From positions 18,807-82,806 of the forward strand of contig NZ_VLLC01000008.1 in NCBI RefSeq assembly GCF_007830435.1: DNA of 64,000 nt. Direction: 5' to 3'. Below the pieces are notes generated by a model. It was not told where the DNA came from, made no database searches, and saw only the letters and a list, made by a program, of their open reading frames with translations. Positions 3,008 to 23,565 of the stretch are shown in pieces. This DNA is from Desulfobotulus alkaliphilus. GTDB lineage: Bacteria; Desulfobacterota; Desulfobacteria; Desulfobacterales; ASO4-4. Position numbers and translations under genes: made by a program. Position 1 is the stretch's first letter, and each line of letters opens with the position of its first letter.

Positions 3008-5233
3008 ATGCCGGAAAAAACCCTTTCCTACCAATGCAAAAAATGCCATGCAGAGCAGCAGCTTTCAGGCGCTGCAGCGGGCAGTGTCGTGCCCTGCACC
3101 CATTGCAGCGCCCCCATGGCCATACCCGCCTCTGCACCTCCGGTGATTCTGCAGCTGGCCCTGCACGCAGGGGATATTACAAAGGAAGGGCTTTCTGAAA
3201 TCATGCGGCTGTGGGAGGAAAAAAGGGCCGAAAACCCCCATACGGAAATTCTGGAAGTTCTTAAGGATCAACCGGGCATAACTGAAGAAAAAATCAATAA
3301 ACTGAAAAAAACCCATAAGGTTTGGCTGCTGCGCAGCCGGGAAAAACGCCTTGCAGCGGCCATTCTGCGCCTTGGGTGGGTTTCCGAAGAAAAAATAAAG
3401 CAGGCCACGGACATTCAGCAGCTCATTTTCCGCAAAAAAGGCGTTCACCCCGGCCTCGGAGATGTTTTAATCCAGCAGGGCCATTTGAAAAAGGCCCAGC
3501 TGGATGCCATTCTCAAGGCCATGAATAAATGTGATGAACCCGCTGCAAAAGCCCCGCCTGAAACAAAAAAAACACCACCCAAAGACCCTGAAGGGGATCC
3601 TGTCTGCCATGCATCCGCCCCCGATGGAATTCCCTGTTATACAATGGAGCAGGATGAAACATCCCCGTCTGAACTGGACAGCTATCTCAGCCTGACCGTT
3701 TCCAAAGACAATATGGCCGCATTCATCAGGGAAAAAGAACCCCTTCCCCCACACCTTACAACCGATGAGCTGCTGGACTGGATTCAGGCAAAGGGCATCA
3801 TTTATGGCCTTGTGGACCAAAACCTGCTGGATGGTTTCATCCGTTTTGAATCCGTGCGCCAGTCCAGCTTCAAAACAGCCTCAGGCAAGCCTCCAAGGCC
3901 AGGGAAGGAAGGAAGGATTCAGTTTCATTTTCCAACGGATTTCCTCTCCAGCGGTGCCATGCTCACCGATGACGGACGCATTGACTTCCGGGAGCGGGGT
4001 GCCATTCCCCATGTGACAAAGGGCAGTCTTCTTGCTGAAAAAACAGCTACCATCCATGGAGTAAACGGAGTGGATGTCTTTGGCAATATACAGGTGGTTC
4101 CCGAAGTGAAGGATCCCCCCTTAAAAGCGGGAACCGGCGTCTACACCAGCGAGGACCGTCTCAAAATATTTGCCAAAATCGACGGTCAGCCTTCCCTCCG
4201 GGCCTCGGGCGAAGTCTCTGTGATTGACGAAATTCTCATCAAAGGGGATGTGGGCTATGAGACCGGCCATATTCAGTATGAGGGCAAAGTCCGCATTACG
4301 GGTAAAATTCCGGCGGGATTCCGGGTAGAGGCCAATGAAGTAACCGCAGAAGCCGTAGACGGCGGCCAGATCAGTGCCAAGGGAGATGTGGTGATCACCA
4401 ATGGAATCACCGAGGGGGAAGTTTATACGGAAGGGGAAGTGCGGGCCAAATTTGTCAATAAGTCCAAAATACGAACCCTTTCCAATGTCACCATTCACAG
4501 TGAAGTGATTGATTCCGACATTGCCTGCTCCGGTGGTTTCAACATCCGTAGCGGAAAAATCATTGCTTCGGAAATAGCTGCCCGTCAGGGTATTGAAGCG
4601 GGTACCATCGGAACGGAAATATCCTCTTCTTCCACCCTGCATATCGGTATTGATCTCCCCCTTCAGGAAACCTTCATGGAGATCGACCGTAAAATTCAGA
4701 AAAAAAAGGATATCCTATCCAAAGTGCTTCTCCTGCCCCAGGAGCTGGAAAATGAGGAGAAGAAACTTCTCGCCGACATCACCCATTTTGCCCAGGTCCA
4801 GGACCGTTCCGGCCTGAAACTGAAACTCATTCAGGAAAAAAAATTTGACGAAGCAGAAACCACCGCCGCCGAAGCCCCTTCTCTGGTAAAAAAACTCCAT
4901 GAAGACATGCAGGAGGCCGAAAAAAGACTGGGAGAACTCTTTAACCGTCAGGACACCATTGATGATGACAAAAAAAAGGCCCGGGAAGCCATAGATGCGG
5001 CAGAAAAAAATCTGAAAGAAGACGAGCAGGAAAAAAAGGCCATGGAAGACTGGGCTGCCCAGCGTACGCCCATTGCCCTTTTGAAAATCAACAGCAAGGC
5101 CTATCCGGGGACACGGATTGTCGGCTCCAAAGCCCAGGCCACCCTTCAGGAGCCCTTATCCAAGTGCATGGTACGTCAGGTTGAAGTCCAGGATACGGGG
5201 GAAAAGGAATATATCATACGTATATTCAGGTAA
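3008..5233 (+). CDS. FapA-family (DUF342) polymer-like protein with N-terminal zinc ribbon
   Basis: The protein is 741 aa. It starts with a putative zinc ribbon (C10, C13, C30, C33), followed by a region of about 170 aa resembling no named domain. A FapA/DUF342 beta-helical domain spans roughly residues 220-555, rich in short Gly-Val-Ile repeats such as DEILIKGDVGYETG. A charged coiled coil (about 560-690) and a short C-terminal cap follow. FapA-type proteins have been linked to flagellar assembly and envelope processes, but the biochemical role is not settled. There are no flagellar genes nearby. GGAGAG lies just before the ATG. The gene stands alone downstream of MITE copy A, which may have changed its promoter region. 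Confidence 0.85.
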   Translation: MPEKTLSYQCKKCHAEQQLSGAAAGSVVPCTHCSAPMAIPASAPPVILQLALHAGDITKEGLSEIMRLWEEKRAENPHTEILEVLKDQPGITEEKINKLKKTHKVWLLRSREKRLAAAILRLGWVSEEKIKQATDIQQLIFRKKGVHPGLGDVLIQQGHLKKAQLDAILKAMNKCDEPAAKAPPETKKTPPKDPEGDPVCHASAPDGIPCYTMEQDETSPSELDSYLSLTVSKDNMAAFIREKEPLPPHLTTDELLDWIQAKGIIYGLVDQNLLDGFIRFESVRQSSFKTASGKPPRPGKEGRIQFHFPTDFLSSGAMLTDDGRIDFRERGAIPHVTKGSLLAEKTATIHGVNGVDVFGNIQVVPEVKDPPLKAGTGVYTSEDRLKIFAKIDGQPSLRASGEVSVIDEILIKGDVGYETGHIQYEGKVRITGKIPAGFRVEANEVTAEAVDGGQISAKGDVVITNGITEGEVYTEGEVRAKFVNKSKIRTLSNVTIHSEVIDSDIACSGGFNIRSGKIIASEIAARQGIEAGTIGTEISSSSTLHIGIDLPLQETFMEIDRKIQKKKDILSKVLLLPQELENEEKKLLADITHFAQVQDRSGLKLKLIQEKKFDEAETTAAEAPSLVKKLHEDMQEAEKRLGELFNRQDTIDDDKKKAREAIDAAEKNLKEDEQEKKAMEDWAAQRTPIALLKINSKAYPGTRIVGSKAQATLQEPLSKCMVRQVEVQDTGEKEYIIRIFR

Positions 5234-20545: not shown

Positions 20546-21205
20546 TCAGGGCCATGGATGCAGCTCCTGCATCAGAATCTGTAAAATTCCCCGGAAGCCA
20601 TGGTCCGTTGCCCATGGGCTGATGAAAAGCAAAAAGATACAGATACCCCCAAAAACAAGACAGACCCGGTCCCCAGCGGTCCACGCAGATCTGTCTGCAT
20701 TTCTTCCGGAAAAACCATTCCCCGCCTCCGCAGCAACGCAAGGGGGATTTTCTGCCACTCCGTCTGACCTCCGCCGCCTGCGCAGCAAGACACGCAGCAC
20801 CTGAGCCAGATCATCCATAGAAAGAAGAACAGCCCTGAGTGCCTTTTCCCATACCACAAACCGGGCACCGGTTTTCACACCCTGCACCCCTGCCCGTGCC
20901 GCAGAGCCAAGGCCAGCAATCCCCATGATGATCTCCATATAAACCCCAAGGACCAGTGCAAAAATCACAAGACTGATGTCCAGCTTGATGGACCAGCAGA
21001 CCCTTGCCAATATAAGTGGAAAGGGGGCGCCTTCATCTTCGGCCTTCTGCCGGATTCCTTCGAAAAGACCATGGACAGCCACCACGGCAACCAGCCAGAA
21101 AAGACTGATCCAGATGCTTAACACCACGGCAAGCCCAAGATAGAGAAGGATAAAGGACCAGCGCTCATCATGGTTCAGAATCCAGTCATACAAAATGCTT
21201 TTCAA
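20546..21205 (-). CDS. Hypothetical multi-pass membrane protein
   Basis: The protein is 219 aa, starting at TTG 21205 directly behind GGAAGGG. Helices are visible at about 17-45, 70-95 and 180-195. There is an amphipathic Arg-rich segment (VLRVLLRRRRRSDG). No family was recognised. It follows truA by 11 nt and so belongs to the selenoprotein-truA transcript. Confidence 0.65.
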   Translation of the reverse strand: MKSILYDWILNHDERWSFILLYLGLAVVLSIWISLFWLVAVVAVHGLFEGIRQKAEDEGAPFPLILARVCWSIKLDISLVIFALVLGVYMEIIMGIAGLGSAARAGVQGVKTGARFVVWEKALRAVLLSMDDLAQVLRVLLRRRRRSDGVAENPPCVAAEAGNGFSGRNADRSAWTAGDRVCLVFGGICIFLLFISPWATDHGFRGILQILMQELHPWP

Positions 21206-21216
21206 TTCCCTTCCCT

Positions 21217-22062
21217 TCAGCCTGCACCCTCTCCTCCCATGCCGATACCGGGAGGCGGTTTGATTTCCATGGCAGGCTGTCTGAAGTCATTGTTTAAATC
21301 ATAATGGACGGCTTTCAGAAAAAGACCCTGAGGCGGTGCGGTAACACCTGCCAGCTCACGCTTTTTCCCTTCAAGGATTTCTGGTAATGACTCAGGCTTT
21401 ATTTTACCCCGTCCCACCTGAATAAGGGTACCTGCCAGATTTCTTACCATATAACGCAGAAAACCATTGCCTGTCACCTCAAAGGCAAAAACATCGGGAA
21501 TACCCGGCTCATCGCTAAAAAAAACACTGTACAGGGTCCGTACCGTATGGCTTCTCGGGCTGCCAGCCGCCTCAAAGCTTTTAAAATCATGGGTTCCCAC
21601 CAGATATGCCGCAGCGGCATCCATGGCTTTCCTGTCCAGAGGCTGCCAGACATGCCAGAGATAATTTCTGCCAAGGACCGGGCGCAGTGGCCGGTTCAGA
21701 ATGCGGTATCTATAGGTTTTTGCCCTTGCAGCAAAGCGGGCATGGAAGGCAGGGCCTGCCTCCATACAGTGATGGATGGCAAGACCTTCGGGCAGAAGAC
21801 AGTTCAGGGCCTTTTTTATGGCAGAGCCATTCATGCGGGTATGCATATCAAAGTGGGCCACCTGGGCAAGGGCATGGACACCAGCATCGGTCCTGCCGGA
21901 GCCATGCACGATGACGGGCATATTGGCAATCAGGGAAAGGGCCTTTTCCAGCTCTCCCTGAACGGTTTTAATTTTGGGCTGGCACTGCCAGCCATGGAAA
22001 CATGAGCCGTCATATTCCATGACAATTCTGAATCGACGCACCTTTTTTCCAATCCCTTTCAA
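21217..22062 (-). CDS. truA: tRNA pseudouridine synthase A
   Basis: The protein is 281 aa. The catalytic Asp is D59 in GSGRTDAGVHALAQVAHFD; RMNGSAIKKALN and the C-terminal GNGFLRYMVRNL are typical. It makes pseudouridine at tRNA positions 38-40. The TTG start at 22062 overlaps the stop of the upstream selenoprotein gene in a TTGA arrangement, which suggests translational coupling. A GTG at 22041 (protein beginning VRRFRIVMEYDG) is the alternative. The C-terminal about 25 residues are Pro/Gly-rich and variable. Confidence 0.93.
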   Translation of the reverse strand: MKGIGKKVRRFRIVMEYDGSCFHGWQCQPKIKTVQGELEKALSLIANMPVIVHGSGRTDAGVHALAQVAHFDMHTRMNGSAIKKALNCLLPEGLAIHHCMEAGPAFHARFAARAKTYRYRILNRPLRPVLGRNYLWHVWQPLDRKAMDAAAAYLVGTHDFKSFEAAGSPRSHTVRTLYSVFFSDEPGIPDVFAFEVTGNGFLRYMVRNLAGTLIQVGRGKIKPESLPEILEGKKRELAGVTAPPQGLFLKAVHYDLNNDFRQPAMEIKPPPGIGMGGEGAG

Positions 22063-22244
22063 AGACGATCCACGGGAATCCAGGCAAGGCGCTCTTCCAT
22101 GGCCTCATCCATGAGCTCCTGTACCCTGGATTCCGGACAGTTATGGCCGCACACCGTGCAGCGGAAAGTCACCCTCCGTCAGCTGCGTCTTACCAGAATT
22201 CTGCCCTTCCCGCATACGGGACAAACCAAAGCTGTTTCCACCAT
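22059..22244 (-). CDS. Predicted small dual-CxxC selenoprotein (in-frame UGA as Sec)
   Basis: A 61-residue frame starts at ATG 22244 behind GGAAGG. It has an in-frame TGA at 22181-22179 (residue 22) and runs on for 39 codons to a TGA that overlaps the truA start. Before the UGA is CPVC (C8, C11) and then RILVRRS; after it come RRVTFRCTVCGHNC (C29, C32, C36) and an acidic tail with MDEAMEERLAWIPVDRL. A paired CxxC knuckle only makes sense if the UGA is decoded. A SECIS-like hairpin follows (22146-22162). From memory, a family of dual-CxxC small (seleno)proteins is annotated in sulfate reducers, and this fits it. Function unknown; zinc ribbon or redox role possible. The alternative is a nonsense mutation in a CGA codon. 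Confidence 0.72.
22146..22162 (-). promoter_or_regulatory. SECIS-like hairpin downstream of the in-frame UGA
   Basis: In RNA, GCUGCAC-GGU-GUGCGGC forms a 7-bp stem (one U-G pair) with a GGU loop. The loop guanines are 24 and 25 nt after the UGA. Bacterial SECIS elements sit just inside the coding region with a G at the first or second position of a short apical loop, so geometry and loop both fit. Confidence 0.6.
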
Positions 22245-22289
22245 CCATCCCTTCCCTGTCAAGGTGAATAAAAATCTGTGTATTATGCC

Positions 22290-22317: not shown

Positions 22318-22383
22318 GGAAAAATGTCTCAGGGAAAGAAATGTTCCCTTATTCTCCACAACCTTATTTTTCAGGAACACACC

Positions 22384-23565
22384 ATGACAGCCATGCAATG
22401 CAGAGGTTTTTCCGCCGGTGCCCTTTGTGCCGGAATCAAATACAAGGACAGACCGGATCTGGCCATGCTGGTCTGCGACCACCCCGCAGCCGCAGCCGCC
22501 GTTTTCACCCGGAACAGGGTCACGGCTGCGCCGGTGAGGCTCAGCCGGGATCACATCGCCTCCGGCCGCTGCCAGGCCCTTATTGTCAATTCCGGAAATG
22601 CCAACTGCGCCACCGGAGAAAAGGGAATGGAGAATGCAAAGGCCATGGCAGAGGCCACAGCCCATGCCCTGCAGATGGCACCGGAGCTGGTGCAGGTGGC
22701 CTCCACGGGAGTCATTGGCCAGCAGCTTCCCATGGACCGTATTCTTCCCAAAATACCGGAACTGGCCGCAGCCCTTCACCCGCAAGGGCTTGATGATCTC
22801 GCCTCTGCCATCATGACCACGGATCTTGTGAAGAAAACAGCTTCCCGCACCCTGCAGATCCGGGGAAAGGAAATCACCCTCTGCGGTGTTGCCAAGGGCT
22901 CCGGAATGATCCGGCCGGACATGGCCACCATGCTGGCCTTCCTTGTCACGGATGCGGATATTCTTCCGGAAAAGCTGTCTGCCCTTTTAAAAGAAGCCGT
23001 AAATAAAAGCTTCAACCGCATTTCCGTGGACGGCGATACCAGCACCAACGATACCGTACTGCTCATGGCCTCCGGTGCTTCCGGCATACAGCCCGCAGGA
23101 GAGGAAGAAAAGACCTTTGCCTCGGCACTGAACGACATCTGTCTGGACCTCGCCACCCAGGTGGTTCAGGACGGTGAAGGTGCCACCAAGCTTGTAAAAA
23201 TTGTGGTGGAAGGGGCAAAAAGCAGGGAAGATGCCCTGAAAGCCGCAGATACGGTGGCCTGCTCACCCCTGGTAAAAACCGCCATCTTCGGAGAGGATGC
23301 CAACTGGGGCCGCCTTGCCATGGCTGTGGGCCGATCCGGTGCGGACCTTGACCCGGACCGCATCACCCTGTCCTTTGACAACACCCTGCTCGTGAAAGAC
23401 GGCGTATGGTTAGGGCAGGATGCGGAAAGCCGTGCTTCTGCCGTCATGAAACAGAAAGCCTTCACCATTCTCATTGATCTGGGGATGGGGGACGGCAGGG
23501 ATTTCATGCTGACCTGTGACTTTTCCTATGACTATGTGCGCATCAATGCCGACTACAGATCATAA
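22384..23565 (+). CDS. argJ: Bifunctional ornithine acetyltransferase / N-acetylglutamate synthase
   Basis: The protein is 393 aa from ATG 22384 (CAGGAA upstream). The self-cleavage/active site is KGSGMIRPDMATM, with the nucleophilic Thr at residue 182 at the start of the beta chain. VNSGNANCATG (68-78) is the other family motif, with the oxyanion region around STGVIGQ. It recycles the acetyl group in arginine biosynthesis. Whether it also makes acetylglutamate from acetyl-CoA cannot be told from motifs alone. It overlaps the next gene by 20 nt. Confidence 0.95.
   Translation: MTAMQCRGFSAGALCAGIKYKDRPDLAMLVCDHPAAAAAVFTRNRVTAAPVRLSRDHIASGRCQALIVNSGNANCATGEKGMENAKAMAEATAHALQMAPELVQVASTGVIGQQLPMDRILPKIPELAAALHPQGLDDLASAIMTTDLVKKTASRTLQIRGKEITLCGVAKGSGMIRPDMATMLAFLVTDADILPEKLSALLKEAVNKSFNRISVDGDTSTNDTVLLMASGASGIQPAGEEEKTFASALNDICLDLATQVVQDGEGATKLVKIVVEGAKSREDALKAADTVACSPLVKTAIFGEDANWGRLAMAVGRSGADLDPDRITLSFDNTLLVKDGVWLGQDAESRASAVMKQKAFTILIDLGMGDGRDFMLTCDFSYDYVRINADYRS

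Follow-up and report, generated by a model that had tools for sequence, protein, structure and literature searches.

A probable small dual-CxxC selenoprotein of the catalogued NF041197/OS_HP3 family encoded beside truA in Desulfobotulus alkaliphilus

Between truA and argJ in the window (the whole 64,000-nucleotide stretch of Desulfobotulus alkaliphilus DNA that was analysed), a short minus-strand frame is interrupted by one in-frame UGA, which raises the questions of whether this codon is read as selenocysteine (Sec), to what family the product belongs, and whether the neighbouring tRNA-modifying enzyme says anything about its role. Direct reading of the DNA confirmed the elements described in the first-pass annotation, namely a 61-codon minus-strand frame with a ribosome site, a TGA at codon 22 and a CxxC motif on each side of it. 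The frame opens with an ATG at 22244 and ends after codon 61 with a TGA stop at 22059-22061; the two motifs read CPVC (residues 8-11) and CTVC (residues 29-32), and a purine-rich, Shine-Dalgarno-like AGGGAAGGG is located a few bases 5' of the ATG. The features of the locus, in window coordinates, are as follows.

22248..22257, minus strand: Shine-Dalgarno-like AGGGAAGGGA, 5' of the ATG (seen in the sequence; purine-rich equivalents in the genus relatives L058 and L070)
22059..22244, minus strand: probable small selenoprotein gene, 61 amino acids plus stop (translation with TGA as U, NCBIfam match, genus relatives)
22212..22223, minus strand: first CxxC (C8, C11), invariant in a 68-sequence alignment
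22179..22181, minus strand: UGA codon 22, almost certainly read as Sec (codon counts across homologues)
22149..22160, minus strand: second CxxC (C29, C32), within the SECIS hairpin, invariant in the same alignment
22146..22162, minus strand: bacterial SECIS-type hairpin with a 7-bp stem (fold, loop-G conservation, AGG bias, covariation)
21217..22041, minus strand: truA, tRNA pseudouridine synthase (PF01416, 8e-42; GTG at 22041 the likeliest start, TTG at 22062 the alternative)
22324..23565, plus strand: argJ, divergent neighbour (PF01960, 4.8e-153 from residue 31; true start probably at about 22381)

The 61-amino-acid protein matched the NCBIfam model NF041197.2 over the whole of its 53 positions (profile 1-53), with 60.6 bits when Cys was placed at the Sec site, 52.5 bits with X at that site and 51.1 bits in the genome search, relative to a curated cut-off of 40 bits, and the two CxxC motifs flank the Sec/Cys position as in that family (C8, C11, U22, C29, C32). 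A Pfam search of the same protein gave no family above its cut-off. In excerpts of two papers (PMC13188914, PMC9312934), the model, named CxxC_Se_CxxC ('dual CXXC motif small (seleno)protein'), is the same as OS_HP3 and carries an RxU motif, and reviews attribute OS_HP3, in the excerpts available, to Zhang and Gladyshev 2007 (PMC13188914, PMC9312934, PMC12013277). According to an excerpt of the deep-Sep paper (PMC12013277), Desulfosarcina widdelii has OS_HP3 as an already known selenoprotein; a second hypothetical protein, DW, is added there, and an excerpt of a 2026 review (PMC13188914) files DW under NF041197 as well. The 61-amino-acid gene is real and belongs to a selenoprotein family catalogued since 2007, a genuine but ordinary find; the expectation that annotation would overlook it did not hold, as NCBI already has the curated model NF041197 for the family.

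With NF041197/OS_HP3 the protein shares its length, the CxxC-x10-Sec-x6-CxxC arrangement, the helix, the C-terminal (N/D)R(L/I) and the RxU motif, while this member and its genus differ in having Val where Cys is common before DRL, and a first CxxC that is one residue further from Sec. The genus relatives L058 and L070 were 93% and 70% identical, respectively, and across the 68-sequence alignment the invariant positions were C8, C11, C22 (Sec/Cys), C29, C32 and R60. The 'hypothetical protein DW' has a related dual-CxxC frame with a TGA between the motifs and differs by GxU in place of RxU and by another C-terminus, forming a paralogous, lower-scoring subfamily. This GxU type often occurs as one extra copy per genome (for example, L075 1501-1650, L189 4001-4150 and L187 4001-4159); the genome search found none in the host. 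NF041197 matches above the cut-off were present in 184 of the 291 genomes sampled from the host class and in 88 of 395 genomes sampled across the phylum, with exactly one TGA in almost all matches of the host class. Other classes also have a Cys-only subfamily with an IHEV...IIYD C-terminus (L153-L156, L158, L159, L162, L163).

The reading of UGA-22 as Sec, together with membership in NF041197/OS_HP3, was judged to have a probability of about 0.95 from the sequence comparisons. Among distinct homologues of the host class, the Sec column held TGA in 83 of 91, TGT in 5 and TGC in 3, so that the search for Sec or Cys homologues at this column, proposed in the first-pass annotation, returned 83 TGA and 8 Cys forms; Cys also occupied the column in several families of other classes. 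The other genes proposed there as a check, selA, selB, selD and selC, were all found in the host genome (profile matches of 626.5, 372.2 and 383.1 bits for selA, selB and selD, respectively, and 75.4 bits for tRNA-Sec). The host selD (L190, G000:C17:66531-67451) contains one in-frame TGA and so is itself a selenoprotein gene. Presence of selB was rejected as an explanation of Cys versus Sec forms since it also occurs in genomes with Cys forms, and the exchange of Sec for Cys in those genomes is thus not due to loss of the Sec system.

The hairpin with a GGU loop about 24 nt past the TGA, as described earlier, was found to have a 7-bp stem; it starts 16 nt after the UGA, and the GGU (22153-22155) starts 23 nt after it. 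Folding energies were -10.3 kcal/mol for the hairpin and -18.0 kcal/mol for 48 nt. The bSECIS model, as quoted in an excerpt of PMC13188914, calls for an apical loop of 3-9 nt, a stem of 4-16 bp, a G in the first two loop positions, a loop 16-37 nt from the UGA and a minimum free energy of -7.5 kcal/mol or lower, and the loop, stem, distance and energies found here all lie within these ranges. The hairpin energy was within the shuffle range (z of about -1.6 to -1.7; 13-16 of 200 shuffles as good), and as it is only modestly better than that of shuffled sequences, the case for the hairpin rests on comparison. The loop G at nucleotide 24 after the UGA was present in 82 of 83 TGA forms versus 0 of 8 Cys forms, and AGG accounted for 56 of the 60 Arg codons spanning it, compared with 39 of the 457 at other positions of the gene (Fisher p = 4e-44); the sequences behind these codon and loop-G counts are not phylogenetically independent, although the contrast is stark. 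TGC was used in 162 of 166 codons of the second CxxC, which lies within the hairpin, versus 121 of 166 codons of the first. In 30 sequences, 92.4% of stem pair cells were paired, versus 28-52% when the partner was shifted by 1-3 columns; 12 cells were changed on both sides, and the stem's covariation score was higher than in any of the 500 shuffles. The comparative evidence for the hairpin is far beyond chance. The proposed SECIS check thus came out with a bSECIS-type hairpin whose guanine is conserved in TGA forms only, and the Sec/Cys column, this guanine and the Sec machinery of the genome together strongly support the earlier inference of selenocysteine. Decoding would follow the standard bacterial route, in which SelB, tRNA-Sec and the hairpin direct insertion of Sec at UGA-22.

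As for the protein itself, the four invariant cysteines would hold a single metal ion, most likely zinc, in a small zinc-ribbon fold, in which a strand-turn-strand between the CxxC motifs would place the selenol at an exposed hairpin tip among basic residues, with a C-terminal helix to follow. The AlphaFold model (pLDDT 76.5, pTM 0.46) comprised a hairpin at 15-20/25-29 and a helix at 38-53, with Sec in the modelled turn (residues 21-24), at a distance from the cysteine knuckles. Sequence-profile matches were weak and included 2jrp (2.1e-5), HypA (zinc domain, 3a43) and zinc-ribbon subunits of RNA polymerase; VIA-align matches, likewise weak (Z <= 4.1), were to zinc-ribbon-type proteins, Elf1 and the ATCase regulatory chain among them, and Foldseek gave no match against the PDB at E <= 0.001. 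Zinc ribbons such as the YfgJ-like 2jrp/2jne, the HypA zinc domain, the MqsA N-terminal domain and Elf1 have, like the modelled protein, a beta hairpin linking two CxxC knuckles, but no selenocysteine, and the similarity is weak and of fold only. On this modelled fold the protein is probably a zinc ribbon. A putative role of the selenol as redox nucleophile is the least certain step and can be put forward only tentatively. The near-C-terminal Cys of a (P/R)C(N/D)R(L/I) motif may be the partner of the selenol, and would be so only in members that have this Cys, which 63 of 83 Sec forms possess and 20 lack; the host genus, with Val at that position, also lacks it, so that it is not a general resolving residue.

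Alternatively, instead of a structural zinc ribbon whose selenol is redox-active, the four Cys and the Sec could together make up a site that binds or delivers soft metals, as in a metal chaperone or scavenger. The 68-sequence alignment holds five invariant thiol/selenol groups within 53 residues, and the profile similarity noted above includes the zinc domain (3a43) of HypA, a nickel chaperone; however, no recurrent metal-resistance or metallocentre genes adjoined the gene in the neighbourhoods examined, and the modelled hairpin, if right, puts Sec away from the cysteine knuckles. This makes a soft-metal site unlikely, though worth keeping in mind beside the zinc ribbon with its putative redox selenol.

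The adjacency to truA had been read in the first-pass annotation as a clue to a possible role, with the selenoprotein stop overlapping the truA start. An overlap does exist for the alternative TTG at 22062, but the genus conserves a GTG at 22041-22039 as the start, about 17 nt downstream of the stop, which makes the overlap doubtful at this locus. At five related loci from four families, the stop and the truA start do overlap as ATGA, in frame with truA. Among the 83 loci mapped to families, truA was within 4 kb in 44, spread over 22 of the 30 families sampled from the class, and it was immediately downstream of the selenoprotein gene in 24 loci of the host class. Divergently upstream of the selenoprotein gene are argJ and an RsuA/RluB-type pseudouridine synthase. 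Directly after truA, a 219-amino-acid hydrophobic ORF (window 20546-21205, minus strand) is conserved in the genus (L058, L070) and gave no match in a Pfam search.

This arrangement might suggest a partnership between the protein and TruA, in which the selenoprotein would, for instance, sense redox state or serve as a cofactor when tRNA is modified, and the frequency of the linkage and the in-frame overlaps within the class would fit. However, truA was within 4 kb at none of the 39 loci from other classes, so that no linkage was found beyond the host class, and the neighbours there are instead lineage-specific housekeeping genes (phosphoribosyltransferase, alaS, fabD-like); even within the class, an AEC-type permease stands between the selenoprotein gene and truA in several families, and argJ, which has no link to tRNA modification, is as common near the selenoprotein gene as truA. 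As the truA linkage is absent outside the class, it reflects class-level gene order and is poor evidence, and a weak clue, for a tRNA-modification role. A functional partnership with TruA is thus very improbable and was largely rejected, and slightly more improbable still is the narrower proposal that, within the class, translation of the selenoprotein is coupled to that of truA and the protein assists tRNA pseudouridylation or places it under redox control. To judge from the gene orders, the adjacency looks like an ancestral arrangement of the class, possibly co-transcribed, with no sign of a tRNA-modification role. Among the loci of other classes, a phosphoribosyltransferase-like gene recurs upstream on the same strand in seven; several of the Sec forms L174-L186 are divergent to an alanyl-tRNA synthetase-like gene (six loci), and others among them are placed after a fabD-like gene. 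Literature searches found no link for truA with selenoprotein terms, nor for zinc ribbon with Desulfobacter, and the OS_HP3 literature, in the excerpts available, makes no mention of a truA/argJ neighbourhood, which seems to be the sole element of the locus undescribed in the searchable literature.

Two further explanations concern the UGA itself. If it were an ordinary stop, the product would be a 21-residue peptide followed by a fortuitous or decayed frame, a reading that the shortness of both halves and the unexceptional energy of the hairpin might suggest, but that is hardly credible given a downstream frame conserved to its last residues over dozens of families (C29, C32 and R60 invariant), Cys at the column in homologues without the SECIS guanine, and one TGA per gene recurring throughout the class. 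Reading of the UGA by a near-cognate tRNA as Trp or another residue draws on one further homologue, L100 (G241:C1:5043985-5052137, minus strand, gene near 4001-4159), which has TGG (Trp) at the Sec column; it is just as hard to credit, as Cys occupies the column in the eight class homologues and in further families of other classes, the hairpin guanine is retained in TGA forms only, the genome has the full Sec machinery, and L100 itself keeps a SECIS-like AGGTC loop, as well as its truA neighbour. The TGG of L100 suggests a recent TGA-to-TGG change with loss of Sec, or a sequencing or assembly error. A sense codon for neither Cys nor Sec at this column had been named beforehand as evidence against selenocysteine, and this single instance is outweighed by the 83 TGA and 8 Cys forms. 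Both the plain stop and the Trp reading were rejected on conservation, Cys forms, guanine and Sec machinery; the Trp in L100 may mean that the selenol is dispensable.

One stretch of nucleotides serves both the second CxxC and the SECIS loop, and replacement of Sec by Cys releases the guanine and the AGG codon. The comparisons made here lend further support to a selenoprotein family that is catalogued but functionally uncharacterised; as it is nearly universal in the class, its gene would be a sensible target for knockout.
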